This document shows positions 8,569 through 20,511 of a stretch of DNA of 64,000 bases, piece after piece. This DNA is from Gammaproteobacteria bacterium (GTDB taxonomy: Bacteria > Pseudomonadota > Gammaproteobacteria > SZUA-229). The position numbers and the translations under genes are program-made. Location of the stretch: positions 1 through 64,000 of the forward strand of contig JABDRN010000018.1 of NCBI GenBank assembly GCA_013041745.1. The letters are read 5' to 3'. Within the stretch, counting starts at the first letter, position 1. The number at the start of each line of letters is the position of its first letter. The notes under the pieces are model-generated. The model saw only the letters and a list, made by a program, of their open reading frames with translations. It was not told where the DNA came from and did not search any database.

Positions 8569-8857
8569 GGATATTTTATGATAGATTTTCCTTGTCGCTA
8601 ATTCAGGTGATTTCATACAGTAAGACCTGTTTGTACTCCGTCTGAAAAGTAAACATTAAAATTTGTCAGTGAATTTATTGATTAGATTGAAAGGCAGGTT
8701 TTTTTAACCTGATGCACTTTAAAACGTCGATAAGTTAGCGAAAAACCTTGCAATTTTACTAATCACAGGGCATTCTCTACGGTCAATACATATCATTTCC
8801 ATGTGGGTATGTAACACTCATTATTTTATGTAAATGAACATGAAGGTAGCTTTGGGC
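8569..8857. other. Intergenic region upstream of the RND pump
   Basis: About 290 bp between epmA and the pump operon. It is AT-rich. The only structure noticed is a short hairpin, CAGGTT (8695-8700) and AACCTG (8706-8711) around five T. I see no convincing terminator, promoter hexamer pair or gene here. Confidence 0.4.
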
Positions 8858-10000
8858 ATGTCAATTATAATAAGTCGAATAAAACTTCCTCTTTATCTCT
8901 CCTTAACTCTACTTACCGGATGGTCCGCTCAAGCTCAGGCAGACAATGTAATAACCGTAGGTGTCGCACCACATGGCGGTTATGTCATTCTTGGTGGCAG
9001 TGTGATACCGCTGAAAGAAGTTACTCTCGCAGCCCAGATGCCCGGACGTATCGTGAGTATCGCGGGTGAAGAGGGTGATGAATTTCCTGCTGGTACCGAG
9101 CTGGTGAAGATCAATGACGATGACCTGCTGGCCAAAAAAGCAGCCGCTGAAGCACAACTGGTGACATCGCAGAACGCGATGCAGAATGCGCAGGTTCAGT
9201 ATAACCGGGAGCTGTGGAATCCACGTGTTTACAACCCGCGGCCAATGGCGGGTATGGGTATGCCATCCATGTTCGACGGTTTCTTTGATGATAATGATTT
9301 CATGCCGGGTACCGGTAATAAAAGTATCGAAAGGCATGCGGACCTTGTCACGCAGGGCACTCAGGTGGCATCTGCCCGTTCACGCATAACCGAGGCAGAA
9401 TCAGGCTTGCGTGAGATCAATGCTAAATTGCGAGACACCAAGGCGATTGCGCCATTCGACGGCATCATCATGCAGAAGCTGGTTGAGATCGGTGACACCG
9501 TTCAGCCGGGGCAGCCCATGATGGTGTTCTCCTATTCAAAATATCTACGCATACAGGTTGAGGTGCCGGCACGCCTGATGCCTGGGCTGACAAAGGGGAT
9601 GGTCGTCCCAGCGAGGCTGGACGTCGGTAATACCCAGATCAATGCACGAGTAGCGCAGATCGCACCTATCGCTGATAACAAGCAGCATACTGTCACTGTC
9701 AAATTTGATCTGCCTGAAGGCGTACCAGGCGGTGCAGGTATGTATGCCGAGGTAATGATCCCTGATGTTAATTCACCGACCAGGGCGCTTCCTGTGATAC
9801 CAAAATCTGCCATCAGCAAGCGCGGCAGTCTGCCTTCGGTCAAAGTTCTGGATGAAAATAACGTGCCTAAGATGCGTTTGATCCGTACCGGTATCGAAAT
9901 TGGTGATAACACTGTGGTAGTACTTTCCGGGCTTGAGCCAGGCGAGAGAATTTTGATCAATAGCAGCGAGCCAAAACCACCGATACCCTGGGATAAATAA
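8858..10000 (+). CDS. RND efflux periplasmic adaptor (membrane fusion protein)
   Basis: Periplasmic adaptor linking an inner-membrane RND pump to an outer-membrane channel. A signal peptide (hydrophobic run then AQA before DNV) is followed by a lipoyl half (LAAQMPGRIVSIAGEEGDEF), a short helical hairpin, the second lipoyl half (TKAIAPFDGIIMQKLVEIGDTVQPG) and the beta-barrel region. The hairpin contains an unusual Pro/Met/Gly-rich insert (NPRPMAGMGMPSMFDGFF). The ATG at 8858 gives the best signal peptide and has GAAGG upstream; an in-frame ATG at 8834 is the alternative. The permease follows 161 bp later. No outer-membrane factor gene is nearby. Substrate unknown. Confidence 0.9.
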   Translation: MSIIISRIKLPLYLSLTLLTGWSAQAQADNVITVGVAPHGGYVILGGSVIPLKEVTLAAQMPGRIVSIAGEEGDEFPAGTELVKINDDDLLAKKAAAEAQLVTSQNAMQNAQVQYNRELWNPRVYNPRPMAGMGMPSMFDGFFDDNDFMPGTGNKSIERHADLVTQGTQVASARSRITEAESGLREINAKLRDTKAIAPFDGIIMQKLVEIGDTVQPGQPMMVFSYSKYLRIQVEVPARLMPGLTKGMVVPARLDVGNTQINARVAQIAPIADNKQHTVTVKFDLPEGVPGGAGMYAEVMIPDVNSPTRALPVIPKSAISKRGSLPSVKVLDENNVPKMRLIRTGIEIGDNTVVVLSGLEPGERILINSSEPKPPIPWDK

Positions 10001-10161: not shown

Positions 10162-13100
10162 ATGACTGATGAACTGGATAAAAATCAAAACGATAGTGAC
10201 GATTTGAATGGTGATGTAAAGCCACCCGCCTCCACCGACGGCAGAGATCTTGGCCTGGCGGGTACGATAGCAAAAACGTTTATCAATTCACCTGTCACCC
10301 CGATGTTACTGATTGCGACATTACTCATCGGCCTGAGCGGATTGATATTTACACCACGGCAGGAAGATCCCCAGATATCGGTGCCTATGATCGATATCTT
10401 CGTCTCATATCCCGGCACCTCGGCGCAGCAGGTGGAAAGCCTGGTCACTGATCCGTTGGAGAGGTTGATGGACGAGATCCCCGGGGTCCGCCATACATTC
10501 TCTGCTACCCAGCGCGGTAATGCGATAGTCACCGTCCAGTTTTACGTTGGTGAGAACCTGGGTGAATCCATCGTCAAGGTCACCGATAAGATTAATTCAA
10601 ACATGGATATGATGCCGCCGGATGTAATGCCTCCTCTGGTAAAACCGGTGGCGATCGATGATGTGCCGGCGGTGGCCGTTACCCTGTGGTCGAAGGAAGT
10701 CGATGACAGTACTTTACGGATCCTCGGTAACGATGTTCTACAGGAGCTTGGCCAGGTAAAGAATACTGGTAAAGGTTTTGTGGTCGCAGGCCGCTCGGAC
10801 CAGATTCGCGTCGAAGTATTACCGGAGCGCTTAGCGGGTTACGGTATCAGTCTGCAACAGGTGGCGGGTGCTATTACTGTCGCTAATACCCAGAAGAATG
10901 TCGGTGCGGTCGAAGCGGGCAGTAAATCATTTACCGTCTACTCGGGTTCTTTCCTGCGTACCGCCGATGATATCAAACGCCTGGTGGTCGGTATGAACCA
11001 GGGTTCACCAGTGTTCATGCGAGATGTTGCTGAGGTCTATCATGGTCCTGAAGATGCCAGGAATATCTCCTCTTATTACGCAGGGCCAGCCTATGAAGGC
11101 ATCGAGCGACCAGTGGGTGATCCTGCGGTTACCGTAGCGATCGCAAAGAAAGAAGGTACCAATGGCGTTACCGTTTCTAAAGCGATCCTGAAAAAGCTGG
11201 AAGAATTAAAAGGTACCATCATCCCGGATAATGTTTATGTAGAGATTACCCGTGACTATGGTAAGTCCGCCAACGACAAGGTAAATGAGCTACTGGCTGC
11301 GATGTTCGAGGCCACAGCGGCTGTTGCTATATTGTGTTTGATCGGCCTGGGTTTCCGTGCTGCATTCGTCGTGGTAACTGTGATACCAGTTGTTATCCTT
11401 ATCACTATCTGGTGGGCCTGGATGGTCGATTACACTATCGACAGGGTCAGTATGTTCGCACTGATTTTCTCTATCGGTATCCTGGTTGATGATGCTACCG
11501 TGGTGGTGGAAAACATATTCAGACACTGGTTGATCAAGGGTCGAACTACTTTACCTGACGCGGTAGATGCGGTCCGAGAGGTTGGTAATCCCACCATCCT
11601 GGCGACATTTACCATTATCGCCGCCTTGCTGCCTATGGGCTGGGTGAGCGGTATGATGGGCCCCTACATGCGTCCGATTCCGGTAATGGGCGCTTCAGCG
11701 ATGTTCTTCTCGCTGGTCGCAGCTTTCATCTTCACACCGTGGTTTGCCGTTCGAGTCCGCCCACAACTTGACGCGCTGGAAAAAGCAGAGAAGCGAGAAG
11801 AGAAGACGCGAAAGTTCGTGGCAGCTATATATCGCCCGCTTATCATGCCGCTGGTGAACAGCCGCAAACTTGGGATTATATTTCTTATCAGCGTGATCGC
11901 GGTTACTGCGATGACGATGTTACTGTTTTACCCGACGCAATGGGTCGCGGTTAAGATGCTGCCATTTGATAACAAACCGGAGTTTAGCGTAATCATCAAT
12001 ATGCCCGAGGGTACGGCGATGCCTGTGACCGCTAACCTGGCGCATGATCTCGCCGTTGCGCTTAACGAGATGCCTGAAGTAGAAGCGATACAGACTTATG
12101 CAGGTACCGCGCAGCCGTTCAACTTCAATGGTATGGTGCGACACTACTACCTGAGGAAGCAACCCTGGCATGGTGAACTGCTGGTGCTGTTAAAAGAGAA
12201 GCATGACCGTGAAAAAAGCAGTCACCAGATAGCAGAAGAAGCGCGTGCCATGCTGACGCCGATTGCAAAAAAAGCCGGTGGTCGAATTGCTATCGTAGAG
12301 ATGCCGCCTGGACCGCCGGTACTGCAAACTGTCGTTGCCGAAATTCATGGACCTGATGCAGAAACTCGACGCGAAGTAGCGAACAAGATGACAGAGTTTT
12401 TTGAACAGGCCGAAGGTGTCGTCGATGTTGATAACATGATGAATGAACCATCGCTGCACTGGCGTTTTGAAGTCAACAAGGAAAAAGCAATACGCAGAGG
12501 AGTCACGGTAGACAGTATCAATGGCACCCTGGCTATGGCCATGGGCGGCTTCAAGCTGGGCGATGTGAAACGTGCATCGGTCATCGAACCAACATTTATC
12601 GTTGTCCAGGTGCCGATGGCGACACGTTCCCAGGTGAACCAGTTGAGTAACCTGCCGATGGTAACATCGGATGGCACTATCATACCCCTGGGTGAGTTAG
12701 GTCGCTTCGTCCTCGAAGAAAATGAGCCGATTATCTGGCATAAAGATCTGCGTAATGTCGAGTTTGTTACCGGCGAGATGGAAGGCCGTCTCGGTGCGCC
12801 GATCTACGGTATGTTTAATGTTGAAGCGTTTTCTGATCAATACACCACACCGGATGGCGTCATCATGGAAGGTATGCCGATGAACCTGATCGGTCCGCCT
12901 AGCACTGATACCAAATCGGGCTTCGAGTGGACCGGGGAATGGACCGTTACCTTCGAAACATTCCGCGACATGGGTCTTGCTTTCATGGCGGCGCTGGTAT
13001 TGATCTACGGTTTGATCGTCTGGGAATTTCGTGACTTCGCCCTGGCTGGCCTCATCATGTCACCGATCCCGCTTACCATGATCGGTATCGTGCCTGGTCA

Positions 13101-14265
13101 CTGGTTTCATGGTGCTGAATTTACAGCGACTTCTATGATCGGCATGATCGCTCTGGGCGGTATTATCGTGCGTCAGTCTATCCTGATCGTCGAGTTTGTG
13201 AAGATCGAAGTGTCTAAAGGTATCCCGGTGAGAGAGGCGGCTGTCAACGGTGCTGAAATACGTATGCGTCCGATCTTCATTACTTCTCTGACATTGATGG
13301 CTGGCGCTTTTGCTATCCTGAATGATCCGATCTTTAATGGTATGGCTATCAGCCTGTTATGGGGTGCTGGCGTTGGTACATTAATGGCTGTTATCGTGAT
13401 ACCGCTAGGCTGTATCAGTGTGCGTGAAAACTTCTACTTTGTAGAGTCGGCGTCGGGTGAAAGGATTATCAGTGAGAAATTTGCCGAGATTGAGGGTGAG
13501 AGTCCCGAGCAGCTGAATGCAGCTGAGACCGAGTATAAAACGCCATTATGGATGAAGGTATACGGTGTCATCGTTGGAATCTTCGGCTGGATTTTTGTTA
13601 TCGGACAGATGATTTTCAATATCTTACGTATGCTGTTCGGTATGGTCATGGGTATGTTCGGTTCTGATTCGACACCTCCTCCATCCTCGACACCACCGCC
13701 CACGGCTCCGTCTACGCCTCCTCCTGCGCCACCGGCTACTCCGCCCCCTGTCACTACTGATGATAAATCAGAAACTGGGGCTAAGGGTAAATCTGATGAT
13801 AAGCCCGTGGCGAGCAAGAAGGTGGCTGCTGAAAAACCGGCCGTTAAAAAAGCACCGGTCAAGAAAGAAGCGCCTGAAAAAGCACCGGTCACGAAAGAAG
13901 TGCCTGAAAAAGCAACGGTGAAAAAGGTGGCAGCCAAGAAGCAGGCACCCGTTAAAGAACAAGTACCTAAAGAGACAGTGGCTGAGAAACCAGTGCCGGC
14001 AAAATCTGAGCCAGTCAAGGCTGCACCAAAACAGGTTGAACAAAAACAGGCTGAAACTGAGCAAAAAGAACCTGTAAAACAAGTGCCTGTTAATAAAGTC
14101 GCGGTTAAAAAGAAAACGATAGCCAAGAAAGTTGCTAAAAAGAAAGCGACCAGTAAGGTTGTTGCTGAAAAGATTGCTGTTAAAAAAATTGCCGTCAAGA
14201 AAGCACCGTCAAAGAAAACGTCACCGCGAGGTCGCCGGGGAATACGGTTGAAAGACGAGACTTAG
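10162..14265 (+). CDS. RND efflux permease with long Pro and Lys/Ala-rich cytoplasmic tail
   Basis: Inner-membrane proton-driven RND transporter. The first membrane helix is preceded by an acidic 30-residue N-terminus; the TM4 proton-relay motif reads GILVDDATVVVENI with the aspartates at 443-444. The two-fold repeat of membrane and periplasmic domains is intact to about residue 1110. The protein is 1367 residues, far longer than the usual 1030-1100. After an extra hydrophobic segment (about 1135-1160) comes a Pro/Ser/Thr stretch (about 1172-1195) and about 170 residues built from Lys, Ala, Val, Pro and Glu (KKAPVKKEAPEKAPV-like units), ending in PRGRRGIRLKDET. RND C-termini are cytoplasmic, so the tail should face the nucleoid. 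Paired with the adaptor upstream. Substrate unknown. Confidence 0.93.
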   Translation: MTDELDKNQNDSDDLNGDVKPPASTDGRDLGLAGTIAKTFINSPVTPMLLIATLLIGLSGLIFTPRQEDPQISVPMIDIFVSYPGTSAQQVESLVTDPLERLMDEIPGVRHTFSATQRGNAIVTVQFYVGENLGESIVKVTDKINSNMDMMPPDVMPPLVKPVAIDDVPAVAVTLWSKEVDDSTLRILGNDVLQELGQVKNTGKGFVVAGRSDQIRVEVLPERLAGYGISLQQVAGAITVANTQKNVGAVEAGSKSFTVYSGSFLRTADDIKRLVVGMNQGSPVFMRDVAEVYHGPEDARNISSYYAGPAYEGIERPVGDPAVTVAIAKKEGTNGVTVSKAILKKLEELKGTIIPDNVYVEITRDYGKSANDKVNELLAAMFEATAAVAILCLIGLGFRAAFVVVTVIPVVILITIWWAWMVDYTIDRVSMFALIFSIGILVDDATVVVENIFRHWLIKGRTTLPDAVDAVREVGNPTILATFTIIAALLPMGWVSGMMGPYMRPIPVMGASAMFFSLVAAFIFTPWFAVRVRPQLDALEKAEKREEKTRKFVAAIYRPLIMPLVNSRKLGIIFLISVIAVTAMTMLLFYPTQWVAVKMLPFDNKPEFSVIINMPEGTAMPVTANLAHDLAVALNEMPEVEAIQTYAGTAQPFNFNGMVRHYYLRKQPWHGELLVLLKEKHDREKSSHQIAEEARAMLTPIAKKAGGRIAIVEMPPGPPVLQTVVAEIHGPDAETRREVANKMTEFFEQAEGVVDVDNMMNEPSLHWRFEVNKEKAIRRGVTVDSINGTLAMAMGGFKLGDVKRASVIEPTFIVVQVPMATRSQVNQLSNLPMVTSDGTIIPLGELGRFVLEENEPIIWHKDLRNVEFVTGEMEGRLGAPIYGMFNVEAFSDQYTTPDGVIMEGMPMNLIGPPSTDTKSGFEWTGEWTVTFETFRDMGLAFMAALVLIYGLIVWEFRDFALAGLIMSPIPLTMIGIVPGHWFHGAEFTATSMIGMIALGGIIVRQSILIVEFVKIEVSKGIPVREAAVNGAEIRMRPIFITSLTLMAGAFAILNDPIFNGMAISLLWGAGVGTLMAVIVIPLGCISVRENFYFVESASGERIISEKFAEIEGESPEQLNAAETEYKTPLWMKVYGVIVGIFGWIFVIGQMIFNILRMLFGMVMGMFGSDSTPPPSSTPPPTAPSTPPPAPPATPPPVTTDDKSETGAKGKSDDKPVASKKVAAEKPAVKKAPVKKEAPEKAPVTKEVPEKATVKKVAAKKQAPVKEQVPKETVAEKPVPAKSEPVKAAPKQVEQKQAETEQKEPVKQVPVNKVAVKKKTIAKKVAKKKATSKVVAEKIAVKKIAVKKAPSKKTSPRGRRGIRLKDET

Positions 14266-15872: not shown

Positions 15873-16337
15873 ATGAAATCAATGATGAAAGTTGCTGCTA
15901 TGACCGCAGCATTAGGTTTTGCAGTAGCTCCTCTGTCAGCAAGTGCTGACTGGGATATGCCATGGGACAATAATAATAACAGCAGCAATAACTGGAATAA
16001 CAACAACCGTTGGAATAATGACGGTTATGGTTCTGGTTCTGGTTATGGCGACGGTTATGGCGATGGTTCTGGTGATGTCGATGGTAGCTTTAATTTTGGC
16101 ATGAGCGGTAAAGGAAGTGGCCGCGGTCGTGGTGATGCTCGTAATGAGTATTATGGTAATGGCTATAACAATATGGACAACCGTTGGGACAACCGTTGGG
16201 ACAATAACAGTGGTTACTATAATAACCGTGGTTATGGTCGTCCTTACTATGGTCCAGGCCCGGGTTACGGTTATGCTCCGCGCCCTTATGGTGCGCCACA
16301 GGCTGCACCACAGGCTGCACCTGCTCCAGCACAGTAA
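15873..16337 (+). CDS. Sulfur globule protein-like secreted Gly/Asn/Tyr-rich protein
   Basis: Likely structural protein of the envelope around periplasmic sulfur globules, by resemblance to Allochromatium vinosum Sgp proteins. A clean signal peptide ends ASA before DWDMPWDNN. The mature part is low complexity: Asn/Trp repeats, GYGDGYGDGSGD, then SFNFGMSGKGSGRGRGD at residues 72-88, the segment most like the Sgp FNxxMSGxGRGxG region, then NRWDNRWDNN, a Tyr/Pro/Gly stretch and PQAAPQAAPAPAQ. 154 residues suits the family. It is monocistronic: own promoter, 5' hairpin, strong Shine-Dalgarno and terminator at 16352. Low-complexity composition makes homology hard to prove by eye, so a similar extracellular matrix protein cannot be excluded. 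Confidence 0.75.
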   Translation: MKSMMKVAAMTAALGFAVAPLSASADWDMPWDNNNNSSNNWNNNNRWNNDGYGSGSGYGDGYGDGSGDVDGSFNFGMSGKGSGRGRGDARNEYYGNGYNNMDNRWDNRWDNNSGYYNNRGYGRPYYGPGPGYGYAPRPYGAPQAAPQAAPAPAQ

Positions 16338-16393: not shown

Positions 16394-17176
16394 ATGAAGT
16401 ACTCTACAACCATATTATTTTTGCTATGTACTGCCTACACTGCATTTCTGCAGGCCGCATCTTTTACTGCGGACGCTGTGCAGATCCGTGGCGAAAATAT
16501 CAGTCACGCCAAGATGTTCTGGTTAGATGGTAACGTGCGATTTGAATACACCGAAGATGGCGTGCCGATGGCACAGATTTTTGACAATAAGAACAACAAG
16601 ATAATCTGGCTGGATAACGAGAATAAATACTACCTGGAAAGGGAGATGCCAGAGAGTGAGAGAGTAACGACAGGAAGTAAAAATACAAAAACAAACGATC
16701 CGTGTAAACAGTTCGCTGATGCGGAATGTGTGTTTCTTAAAAAAACCAAGATAAATGGCAGAAAGGCTGATAAATGGCTTATCACATTGGATAATAATGG
16801 CCATGATTTTCATATTTTTCAATGGATAGATGAGAAGTATAAGAATATTCTGAGACAGGAAAACTCTGATGGATCAGGGTTAAGTGTGGCAATAAAAGAT
16901 GACCAGGAAATGAATGGTCGAAAAGTCAGGAAACTGACCATGATCGCGTTTAGCGCATCGGGCGAGCAGCAGCAGGGTACCCAGTGGTACGACAATGAAC
17001 TTGATATCGTGGTAAAGCAAGAATATCAAGATGATGTAATTGATGAGCTACGAAATATTGAAGTAGGTAAAGTGGACAAGTTACTGTTCTCGATACCAAA
17101 GGATTACGCTCTGTTCGATAGCAAGGTACAGACAGCGCAGCAGAATGAAACTGATTTACCAGTTAATGGAAATTAA
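16394..17176 (+). CDS. Secreted DUF4412/LolA-like protein
   Basis: Periplasmic protein of unknown role. A signal peptide ends LQA before ASFTADAV. The body has the feel of a LolA-like half-barrel (DUF4412 type): repeated strand pairs such as VRFEYTEDG, IIWLDNENKYYLEREMP, KADKWLITLDNN and a closing KVDKLLFSIPKDYALF. Two cysteines (DPCKQFADAEC) may form a disulfide. 260 residues. It follows the strong terminator, and 86 AT-rich bp separate it from the ParA gene, so it could head or precede that operon. It resembles the gene at 59264 in size and fold type but not closely in sequence. Assignment to DUF4412 is tentative. Confidence 0.6.
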   Translation: MKYSTTILFLLCTAYTAFLQAASFTADAVQIRGENISHAKMFWLDGNVRFEYTEDGVPMAQIFDNKNNKIIWLDNENKYYLEREMPESERVTTGSKNTKTNDPCKQFADAECVFLKKTKINGRKADKWLITLDNNGHDFHIFQWIDEKYKNILRQENSDGSGLSVAIKDDQEMNGRKVRKLTMIAFSASGEQQQGTQWYDNELDIVVKQEYQDDVIDELRNIEVGKVDKLLFSIPKDYALFDSKVQTAQQNETDLPVNGN

Positions 17177-17262: not shown

Positions 17263-17889
17263 ATGATAACAGTCGTTGGAAATCTAAAGGGTGGTACGGG
17301 AAAAAGTACGGTTGCATTTAACCTGGCGGTCTGGCTCGCACATGATAAGGCCGGGGTGAAGGCATTTGACCTTGACCCGCAGTGTACACTGGTCGATGTT
17401 GGTGAAGTCAGAGTCGAGGATGGCTATGAACCGTCTTTCGAGGTTTCCACTGACCTGGGTGAGCTGGAAGCACTGGCAAAAGATAAAAAAAACAAACAGC
17501 CGATTATTGTAGATATGAGTGCCACAAACATGTTTGCCATGGAAAAAGCCATTTCATTGGCAGACAGGGTGTTGATACCGATTCAGCCGAGTCAGGCCGA
17601 TATCTGGTCGACACAGCGTTTCCTGAAAATAGTAAACAATAATATCGATAAGAAAAAAACAGAAGTTCTGGGATTTCTTAATCGGGCTGATACACATATC
17701 GGTGTGCGCGAGACAGATGAAGCTGATCAGGCGCTACAGATGATGCAGGGCATAAAGGCCCTGGGTATACGCTTGCATCAGCGTACGGCCTACCGTCGTT
17801 CATTTAGCGAGGGGCTTGCTGTATTCGAGCTTGACCCGATGGGGAAAGCATCAAAAGAAATGAAGCAACTGGCGATTCTGCTAGATTAG
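17263..17889 (+). CDS. ParA/MinD-family positioning ATPase (orphan)
   Basis: Small ParA-type ATPase (208 residues, no N-terminal helix-turn-helix). The deviant Walker A KGGTGKST is at 9-16 with the signature lysine K9; Walker A' is FDLDPQ, and PIIVDMS is the Walker B-like strand. RTAYRRSFSEGLAVFE near the end is typical of the family. It opens a run of five genes (17263-22089). There is no ParB gene or parS-like repeat beside it, which argues against chromosome or plasmid segregation and for cargo positioning as in McdA, ParC or PpfA. The cargo is not known; the membrane proteins that follow are the obvious candidates for an adaptor. Confidence 0.88.
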   Translation: MITVVGNLKGGTGKSTVAFNLAVWLAHDKAGVKAFDLDPQCTLVDVGEVRVEDGYEPSFEVSTDLGELEALAKDKKNKQPIIVDMSATNMFAMEKAISLADRVLIPIQPSQADIWSTQRFLKIVNNNIDKKKTEVLGFLNRADTHIGVRETDEADQALQMMQGIKALGIRLHQRTAYRRSFSEGLAVFELDPMGKASKEMKQLAILLD

Positions 17890-17969: not shown

Positions 17970-18800
17970 ATGAAGATTATTCGTTGGTTATTAAGTCATA
18001 CATTCCTTATCCTGTTAATCGTAGCAGTGATTTATTGTTATATGTTCTGGGGTAACCTTACCGGTGAAGACACTCCGGCAGGAAAAGCGATAGCATACCT
18101 GTCAGATGAGTTTGTTGAAGTTGAAAGCTTTGTCGAGGCGGTCAAATCTAAGCAGGCAGAGCTGGCCAGTGAGAGATCGAGCGCAGAGAAGCCGGTTGCC
18201 CTTACAGAGACCGGGACAAGCACCGAACAACGAGCTGTCGTACAGCAGCCAGTGAACATCAGCTACAGCCATAACCAGAAACCTGTCGAGCAGAGTGCGA
18301 TGGCTGTTAACAATACAGGAGCTGGAGCTCAGGCCACGGCGGGTGCGGCAAATCGAATGATGCCAGCCGCAACGGCTCCTGCAGCAGCGATGAACAGGAC
18401 TAGTGAAAAGTTTATTTCACCCGAGATTGAAGAGCAGCTGAGTAATGTAGATGAGCACGGCAAAGCCATCGATCCTTCGCAGACCGGTAATTCGGTGAAA
18501 GAGAGCTGGATAACCGCGAGAAAATCTTTTTATCAGCGTGATTATGATAAATCCATACAGAGCTATCAGGATGTGATTGATAATACTGAGGATAATTTTG
18601 ATGCCTATGGCGAACTTGGCAATGTTTATTTCAACCAGGGTAAAAAACGAGAGGCGGCATCTGCGTATTTTGAGGCGGCCGCTATACTCATTAAAAAAGG
18701 GCAGGTCAATCGAGCGCAGAGCTTGATGGGTTTGCTACGACAACTGGATGAAGCTAAGGCGAATGAACTGAAGACGCTGATCGACTCAGCCAGGTCATAA
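17970..18800 (+). CDS. Membrane-anchored TPR protein
   Basis: One membrane helix (about residues 6-27), short cytoplasmic start (MKIIRW), then a likely periplasmic 250 residues. Residues 60-140 are a low-complexity Ala/Pro/Gln/Thr linker; the last 100 residues form TPR-like helices (SWITARKSFYQRDYDKSIQSYQ, DAYGELGNVYFNQGKKREAASAYFEAAAIL). TPR folds bind other proteins, so this is a likely scaffold. It is 80 bp after the ParA gene and 15 bp before the DUF302 gene. No specific family recognised. Confidence 0.75.
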   Translation: MKIIRWLLSHTFLILLIVAVIYCYMFWGNLTGEDTPAGKAIAYLSDEFVEVESFVEAVKSKQAELASERSSAEKPVALTETGTSTEQRAVVQQPVNISYSHNQKPVEQSAMAVNNTGAGAQATAGAANRMMPAATAPAAAMNRTSEKFISPEIEEQLSNVDEHGKAIDPSQTGNSVKESWITARKSFYQRDYDKSIQSYQDVIDNTEDNFDAYGELGNVYFNQGKKREAASAYFEAAAILIKKGQVNRAQSLMGLLRQLDEAKANELKTLIDSARS

Positions 18801-18815
18801 TCGAGGAGTTATTAC

Positions 18816-19406
18816 ATGTTTTATGCACTACGAAATCTATTTGCCCTGGTCGGTTTTCTGGCAATAGTCTGTGCAATCTATGCGGCTGTCAAGATAGCGC
18901 CAATGAAGCAGGCATTTGATGCTCTGGATGAAGGTGCTTTTGATGTCTACAGTGAGATGATGATCAAGGTATTAGAAACCGGTAATTCGGCTGAAGCCAT
19001 GGTCTGGAAAGTAAAAGTCAATGAAGACCTGTCCGCTGAAGAAGTTGAAGAGACCATGCGTTTTGTCGCTAACGAACACAACATAAAAAATGTAGGTGAA
19101 TTACCTCTGTCCGGTCAGGTCGAAGCAATGACAGGTGAAGAGTCTCGTTACCTGAAGATCTACATGTTCTGTAATGCACTTACTGCAGCACAGATGCTCG
19201 AATACAGTGATGCATATTCTGCATTTTTACCTTGTCGCGTCAGTATGGTCGAAGATAAAGAAGGTAAGTTATGGTTATATTCATTGAATATGGATGCCAT
19301 GATCTACGGCGGTACTCCTTTACCTGCAGATCTGAAAGAAGAGGCGGAAGGTGTAAAGGAGATTATATTGGATATTATGAATCGAGGCGCTGAAGGCGAT
19401 TTCTAA
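18816..19406 (+). CDS. Membrane-anchored DUF302 protein
   Basis: One N-terminal membrane helix (about 7-27) followed by a DUF302-like domain: the IYMFCNALTAAQMLEYSDAY segment, then FLPCRVSMVEDKEGKLWLYSLNMDAMI matches the usual DUF302 core (CNP..A..ll, LPCRV, v.ed.G.v.l). 196 residues. DUF302 has no settled biochemical role; it recurs in sulfur-oxidising bacteria and with sulfur-trafficking genes, as I recall. Two cysteines (in FCNA and LPCRV) could be functional. It starts 15 bp after the TPR gene and ends 1 bp before the next gene, so it is tightly coupled. Confidence 0.75.
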   Translation: MFYALRNLFALVGFLAIVCAIYAAVKIAPMKQAFDALDEGAFDVYSEMMIKVLETGNSAEAMVWKVKVNEDLSAEEVEETMRFVANEHNIKNVGELPLSGQVEAMTGEESRYLKIYMFCNALTAAQMLEYSDAYSAFLPCRVSMVEDKEGKLWLYSLNMDAMIYGGTPLPADLKEEAEGVKEIILDIMNRGAEGDF

Positions 19407-19407
19407 G

Positions 19408-20511
19408 ATGGCAGAAGATAAGAAGACTGACAAGCAGTCTGCAAAAAAAACTGCAGAGGCGAAGGCTAAGCCAGCCAGCAGTGCTGTAAAAAAAGAACCG
19501 GTTGCGAAAAAAACTGCAGCTAAAACAGCAGCCAAAGGCGCTGCAGGTTCCACAGCGTCAAAGACAGAAGAGCCTGTGCTGAAAGCATCTAAGGATGCAC
19601 TGGCAGCGATCGAGAAAGCCGGTGCTTCGAAAGATTCTGATATGAAAGCAGCGGCCAAGAAGATCAGTGACATGGATAAGGTTGCTGCCGATAACTCAAT
19701 AAAGTCGAAGAAAGGCGTTGATGAGTTAAAGGCGCGCGCGCATGAAGCAAAACAGCGTGCACAGAGAAAAATACTGGAAGAGTCTTACGTCAGCGACAAA
19801 CCAGCAGATCCCCTGGAGAGGCTTGCCAATACATTCGATAGTAGTGCACGCCGCTGGGAGATGGTGGTGTATCCATCGATGTTTGCCTTTGTGCTGTTAG
19901 CCGGTTATGGCTTTTTCCTGATTTATCGCTTAACGCATGATATCGCCATACTGTCACAATCAGTGACTCATATGGCGGTGATTGTCTCAGATGCGATGCC
20001 ACGTATGACAAAAGACCTTAATGTGATGACTGGCAGTATCGATAATATGACCGGTAACATCGATGGTATGACTACTGAGATTACTTCTATGTCGGGCCAG
20101 ATGGATAGCCTGACACCGATGAGCCATAATATTCAGAGTATGACGCACAACATCGGCAGCATGAACCGTTCCGTTTACGGCCTGCAGCGTGATATGCATG
20201 GTATGAACCGTACCGTATCCAGTGGTCCTTTCGGTATGATGAATGACATGATGCCATTCAGTTCTGACACAAATGTACCACCGCCGATACAGCCATCGCC
20301 GGTATGGCCTTCATATAATCCGGTGCCTCAGCAACAGCCTTTTTATCGGCCCTATGCAGCACCTGCACCAGTAGCGCCCGTTGCAGAGAAGCCCAAAGAG
20401 CCTCAGCAGACAGTCAAGACCGAAGTGACAATGCCGGGTGCGAGTCCGGTTTCACTAAAAGAGGTTTCCAGCCCAAAGGTTTCAGCGACAGTACAGGATA
20501 AAGGTAATTAA
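19408..20511 (+). CDS. Lys/Ala-rich membrane protein with periplasmic Met heptad repeat
   Basis: Not recognised. Residues 1-75 are almost entirely Lys, Ala, Glu, Ser and Thr (KKTAEAKAKPAS, KKEPVAKKTAAKTAAKG), like a histone H1 tail. A helical region (75-150) precedes one membrane helix (about 155-174), so the basic part should be cytoplasmic. Residues about 185-270 form a heptad series with Ile/Leu and Met at fixed places (IDNMTGN, IDGMTTE, ITSMSGQ, THNIGSM), a probable coiled coil. The end is a Pro/Tyr-rich linker. Genes on both sides are within 6 bp. A basic cytoplasmic N-terminus next to a ParA gene would suit a ParA-activating adaptor; that is inference. Confidence 0.8.
   Translation: MAEDKKTDKQSAKKTAEAKAKPASSAVKKEPVAKKTAAKTAAKGAAGSTASKTEEPVLKASKDALAAIEKAGASKDSDMKAAAKKISDMDKVAADNSIKSKKGVDELKARAHEAKQRAQRKILEESYVSDKPADPLERLANTFDSSARRWEMVVYPSMFAFVLLAGYGFFLIYRLTHDIAILSQSVTHMAVIVSDAMPRMTKDLNVMTGSIDNMTGNIDGMTTEITSMSGQMDSLTPMSHNIQSMTHNIGSMNRSVYGLQRDMHGMNRTVSSGPFGMMNDMMPFSSDTNVPPPIQPSPVWPSYNPVPQQQPFYRPYAAPAPVAPVAEKPKEPQQTVKTEVTMPGASPVSLKEVSSPKVSATVQDKGN

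Follow-up and report, generated by a model that had tools for sequence, protein, structure and literature searches.

The RND permease gene cluster

The analysed window, a 64,000-nucleotide stretch of a gammaproteobacterial genome, carries on its forward (+) strand a gene cluster with an RND permease (10162–14265) and its periplasmic adaptor. The permease gene contains no stop or frameshift, which bears out the description, given in the earlier note, of a 1367-residue RND permease reading cleanly into a C-terminal tail encoded at 13660–14265. Residues 36–1050 form an AcrB/HAE1-like core and match Pfam ACR_tran (PF00873) with 459.7 bits against a curated cut-off of 28. As in other RND permeases of the AcrB/HAE1 type, an adaptor gene lies upstream, and the pair Asp443–Asp444 is invariant in 16 permease homologues. 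Unlike them, the protein has Arg1004 near what we take to be the location of AcrB Lys940, and its core is followed by a linker, a 38-residue helix (residues 1129–1166) and a 201-residue tail with a terminal motif. Its best match among the multidrug RND subfamilies of NCBIfam reaches 410.6 bits against a cut-off of 1250, so the substrate is not inferable from these models.

The adaptor (8834–10000) scores above the TIGR01730 cut-off. It contains a conserved Met/Pro/Phe-rich stretch, GMGMPSMFD..F, at the expected position of the alpha-hairpin tip; this stretch can be made out in the majority of 26 aligned homologues, systems with tailless permeases included, and the adaptor may dock to a TolC-like protein in an unusual way.

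Downstream of the permease, the cluster encodes a conserved protein weakly similar to DUF4412, below the cut-off (16394–17176), a ParA-family ATPase of 208 residues (17263–17889), and conserved neighbours with TPR (17970–18800) and DUF302 (18816–19406) domains, all on the + strand. They are followed, on the same strand, by a conserved protein whose Lys/Ala-rich N terminus precedes one hydrophobic segment (19408–20511) and by a dynamin-like GTPase (PF00350; 20518–22089), which closes the cluster. The Lys/Ala-rich protein is conserved beside ParA and is also present in clusters lacking ParA. In three loci (L116, L118, and L120) the dynamin-like GTPase is placed divergently before the adaptor.

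The ATPase is ParF-like and carries the deviant Walker A motif KGGTGKST, with K9, G10, G11, G13, K14, S15, and T16 invariant in 19 sequences, in agreement with the consensus KGGxGKS/T. It passes the Pfam CbiA cut-off, while its best NCBIfam match, ParA_partition (NF041546), stays at 131 bits, below the cut-off of 180. Among solved structures it is closest to ParF (4dzz) and a ParA (5u1g). A conserved Arg near the C terminus is only suggestive of nucleoid DNA binding.

The C-terminal tail and its conserved end

The helix following TM12 (13546–13659, +), predicted by AlphaFold2 and hydrophobic in this protein, and a conserved C-terminal motif are features additional to those of the earlier note. 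The tail itself comprises 201 residues from G1167, with 45 Lys, 31 Pro, 28 Ala, 25 Val, and 16 Glu; as described in the earlier note, a Pro/Ser/Thr stretch passes into Lys/Ala/Val/Pro/Glu units (13660–14232, +). It ends with RRGIRLKDET (PRGRRGIRLKDET), in which the motif RRGIRLK occupies residues 1358–1364 (14233–14253, +). A degenerate DNA pattern for the motif has a single match in this genome, at 14233.

Disorder and codon usage were two points raised for checking in the earlier note. In a single-chain AlphaFold2 model of residues 168–1367, built with 36 sequences, residues 1167–1367 (model residues 1000–1200) have pLDDT below 50 and no secondary structure, and the tail is thus predicted to be disordered. 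Its GC3 is 0.39 versus 0.56 in the core, partly because of many AAA and GAA codons. The tail contains one 30-base tandem repeat (13847–13926, 2.7 copies), and the preservation of the terminal motif in frame among homologues indicates that it is coding. The Lys/Ala composition of the tail resembles that of histone H1-like proteins; unlike these, it remains below the curated cut-offs of HC2 (PF07382; 22.7 bits against 40) and hist_H1_lk_Burk (22.5 bits against 80), and such composition is not conserved across the permease family. These weak matches reflect tail composition.

Among 40 relatives, with orthologues 51–84% identical, the tails vary in length and repeat make-up and the end is constant. 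Close homologues retain the tail and none of them ends near residue 1165; the possibility of a lineage-specific oddity is therefore rejected, as homologues carry tails with the same end. Tails with the end RRGI[RKQ]L were also met repeatedly among the best 80 loci when a single genome of each species was scanned; these loci include Chromatiaceae (Halochromatium, Lamprobacter, Thiocystis, and Thiorhodococcus), Candidatus Parabeggiatoa, the Solemya velum symbiont, Magnetococcales, and a Rhodospirillaceae MAG. In motif-bearing homologues RRGI[RKQ]L[KN] begins 8–28 residues before the end of the permease. Among 96 distinct motif-bearing permeases, the first residue of the pattern is Arg and the L/I position is Leu in all 96, in a search that permitted Arg or Lys and Leu or Ile, respectively, and the preceding residue is Arg in 92.

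The 100 residues upstream of the motif range in net charge from +31 (L005 and L032) to −26 (L039), with the motif shared throughout; the ParA gene is present at both L032 and L039, with their oppositely charged tails. The conserved feature is the terminal motif and not the histone-like composition. Thus, of the conservation looked for in homologues, the end of the tail proved constant, while its length and make-up vary.

The tails of L018, L193, and L195 are built from long AAAEK repeats that reach contig ends, and such repeats may break assemblies. Second permease copies at L205 and L208 carry, instead of the tail, another C-terminal extension (..AEW.P.Q.AWIDRYIKFPGRVER..).

Co-occurrence of the motif with ParA

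At 56 loci, ParA was the strongest tracker of the motif, being found at 33 of the 36 motif-bearing loci and at none of the 20 others (p = 2e-12), in a set where 16 loci were chosen deliberately, 11 for an adjoining ParA and five from genomes without ParA. The motif also correlates in these loci with the adaptor, DUF302 protein, Lys/Ala-rich transmembrane protein, dynamin-like GTPase, and DUF4412-like protein (p from 1e-6 to 1e-3). However, the adaptor, DUF4412-like, TPR, Lys/Ala-rich and dynamin-like proteins are all retained at L050, L060, L062, and L084, together with the DUF302 protein at L050, where both ParA and the motif are absent.

For 18 loci with no ParA nearby, and for six ParA-positive controls, ParA was sought in the whole genome. 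In 14 of the 18 genomes ParA is encoded elsewhere. In 12 of these 14 a second permease copy adjoins it, and all 12 copies end in RRGI[RQ]L[KR]; in the remaining two, both Magnetococcales, the first copy already bears the motif. The other four genomes, those of L050, L060, L062, and L084, contain no ParA orthologue (best matches 28–31% identical) and no motif. Tailless permease homologues come from genomes without ParA or are second copies located away from it. Among cultured purple sulfur bacteria, Thiocystis violacea and Thiorhodococcus drewsii have genomes with the permease–ParA pair.

Because 16 of the 56 loci were hand-picked, a survey of 369 evenly drawn Gammaproteobacteria genomes provides a cleaner test. 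ParA was found at E 1e-35 or better in 63 genomes, or 60 without three of a divergent kind. The permease was present in 75, or 74 after a 43% paralogue (G038) was dropped. Both genes occur together in 55 genomes, the permease only in 19, ParA only in five and neither in 290. Genomes with the permease and the main ParA comprise 48 with the motif, one without and six with unreadable tails; where only the divergent ParA occurs, the motif is present in three and altered (RRGIRAD) in one; with neither kind of ParA, one has the motif, 13 lack it and one tail is unreadable. For the 63 genomes with readable tails and either the main ParA or neither kind, this gives 48 with motif and ParA, 13 with neither, one with ParA only and one with the motif only (Fisher test, 1.8e-11; 4e-10 when the divergent-ParA genomes are counted as ParA-less). 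The named and survey genomes overlap (by coordinates, L050 is G254 and L060 is G384), so the two samples are not independent.

In these counts the motif state was left out where a contig end truncates the tail or where the ParA-side copy is missing or cut (G321, G375, G033, G367, G348, G230, and G239). Genomes scored as motif-bearing include G133, where the motif follows the stop immediately, in the next frame, G151, with a motif-bearing fragment on another contig directly before ParA, and G359 (RRGIRI), G208 (RKGIRL), and G432 (PRGIRI), missed by the first pattern; G284 (RRGIRAD) was scored as motif-less. In an order-level survey of 54 genomes, the motif was present in 15 of 16 newly fetched tails, the other being cut by a contig end.

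Several genomes depart from the association. G161 (99% complete) has the motif and keeps the cluster with an empty ParA slot; like G308 and G405, it encodes only a divergent ParA, 36–43% identical and located away from the permease. In G165 (88% complete) and G068 (84%) the motif is present and ParA was not found, with contigs that end soon after the permease, in G068 as deduced from L033, whose tail is the same. Conversely, ParA is present and the permease was not found in G119 (96% complete), and G374 combines ParA with a complete-looking tail without the motif, near a contig end. A query with the divergent ParA matched six of the 369 genomes with E values no higher than 1e-45 (G161, G284, G308, G405, G193, and G299), in G299 at its main ParA. 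The permease ends with RRGI in G161, G284, G308, and G405, and G193 showed only a 40% paralogue. This divergent subfamily (L251, L252, L242, and L243; f85 and f117) occurs in few genomes, mostly with a motif-bearing permease and no main ParA, and it may be the partner of the tail there, though not adjoining the permease.

In a phylogeny of 65 permease cores, seven changes are required for the motif and seven for ParA; 51 cores have both, 14 neither and none a mixed state, and all six independent pairs are concordant (sign test, 0.031). This tree omits second copies unlinked to ParA and divergent-ParA genomes, the G151 row was set by hand, and long branches possibly meet in the L250 group and L278. 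A tree of 64 rows including second copies and G161, with ParA scored as present only if adjacent to the permease, contains 41 rows with both, three with the motif only, none with ParA only and 20 with neither; six pairs are concordant, none opposed and two show no difference. Stepwise decay is apparent in G380, which keeps the hydrophobic helix and has lost the linker and motif, its sister G151 having both ParA and motif. In G217 the motif is replaced by RKSVRIKQ; the corresponding sequence of its sister G329 is WRGIRLN. From its distribution on these trees, the motif is seen to co-evolve with the ParA ATPase.

A gene for a sulfur globule protein (15873–16337; PF17228, just above the cut-off) is part of the cluster in this genome and in some of its close relatives, and several of the named cluster-bearing organisms are presumably sulfur oxidisers. 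As a candidate partner of the motif, this protein was rejected, being detected at only two of the 36 motif-bearing loci. No paper linking sulfur globules with ParA was found in an open-access paper library; the one paper there on RND, efflux and sulfur globule proteins together concerns metal efflux genes in Allochromatium vinosum.

A ParA-binding tether as a proposed role of the tail

The tail is probably cytoplasmic, a side that we infer from sequence for most members. Against this, the preceding helix looks transmembrane in many of them and, if it crossed the membrane, would place the tail in the periplasm. The helix would then be transmembrane segment 13 of the permease, and the tail a spacer of the TonB/TolA type. 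This would fit a 19-residue KD hydropathy of 2.15 for this protein, with values as high as 2.63 among homologues, and the Pro/Lys and AAAEK repeats (L018), which resemble such spacers. However, in four Magnetococcales TM12 is not followed by any hydrophobic segment (KD −0.21 to 0.94 over 19 residues), and both motif and ParA are kept; provided that their core consists of the usual 12 helices, the motif is cytoplasmic in these four. In L052, L054, and L068 the segment is weak (KD 1.1–1.4) with three charges within 19 residues. On the permease tree, the motif is lost together with a cytoplasmic ATPase, and we consider a periplasmic spacer very unlikely. The cytoplasmic, partner-binding tail suggested in the earlier note probably stands, while a leading role for its histone-like Lys/Ala make-up is not supported. 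An H1-like arm whose Lys/Ala repeats make direct contact with DNA, with RNA or with an acidic protein would fit the 45 lysines, the weak histone-type matches and the many Lys-rich close homologues, and could supplement a ParA contact in this lineage; as the main role of the tail it is improbable, given the swing in charge from −26 to +31 with the motif retained. Moreover, second copies of purple sulfur bacteria not adjoining ParA (L037, L041, L044, and L048) have Lys/Ala tails without the motif, so composition and motif are separable. A histone-like or nucleic-acid-binding tail as the conserved function is rejected, since neither charge nor composition is conserved.

The correlation of the motif with other neighbours, and its presence without the main ParA in G161, G308, and G405, would also be expected if it bound another cluster protein and ParA merely travelled with the cluster. 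Such other partners are less likely, and we regard this explanation as improbable, because L050, L060, L062, and L084 keep most neighbours and are without only ParA and the motif, and because the ParA-positive L055 and L056 keep the motif with no dynamin-like or DUF302 gene detected in the available flank.

The most probable reading, in which we have reasonable though not firm confidence, is that the tail is a flexible cytoplasmic tether with a ParA-binding end peptide, and the permease both cargo and partner of the dedicated ParA of the cluster. ParB and other partners are described as reaching ParA via a disordered region with a short aliphatic and basic motif, a peptide with this motif alone being sufficient to stimulate ParA (PMC12462528). 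Other papers place such partner ends at the N terminus (PMC10241942) and report one lysine of the N-terminal end of McdB to be critical (PMC12204374). In the genome studied here, the ParB N terminus (MMTVKKKAPKKQAAKKKGLGRGLTALL) has a Lys/Ala stretch followed by GLGRGLTALL, resembling GRRGIRLK of the permease in sequence, with Lys/Ala then GRGL against Lys/Ala repeats then RRGI. It is from these papers and this likeness that the tail is read as a tether with a ParA peptide. As in ParA–ParB, ParF–ParG, and McdA–McdB, the ATPase has a deviant Walker A motif, and its proposed partner a disordered region with a short basic/aliphatic motif; the structures nearest to the ATPase are those of ParF and a ParA (5u1g). 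Unlike these systems, no centromere or carboxysome is involved, the putative partner is a polytopic RND permease, and its peptide is C-terminal.

We infer binding of the motif to ParA, ATPase stimulation and pump positioning from sequence conservation and genomic co-occurrence. In the proposed mechanism, ParA-ATP dimers would coat the nucleoid, and the tails of the pump would extend and bind a ParA dimer. RND permeases are homotrimers, so each pump would have three tails, which would give avidity. The basic/aliphatic end peptide would stimulate ATP hydrolysis and release of ParA, and repeated rounds of binding and release could keep the pump in place or distribute it with respect to the nucleoid. 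We judge the chances to be evenly balanced that an RND transporter, in hosts including sulfur oxidisers, is positioned or partitioned by a ParA system of its own via a C-terminal peptide mimicking the ParB activation motif, with a linker free to evolve and only the end peptide retained.

In open-access titles and abstracts, with most subscription journals outside this scope, no link between an RND transporter tail and ParA was described. Chromosomes, plasmids, carboxysomes, chemotaxis arrays, and flagella are among the structures placed by ParA/MinD ATPases (PMC10241942). If the proposed reading is true, pumps would join this list, with an active transporter acting as its own partner protein and forming a new class of cargo. 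ParA partner peptides could then be C-terminal, and the motif would serve as a sequence tag for finding further ParA cargos. A tether for ParA would also explain a tail that otherwise resembles an oddity of composition.
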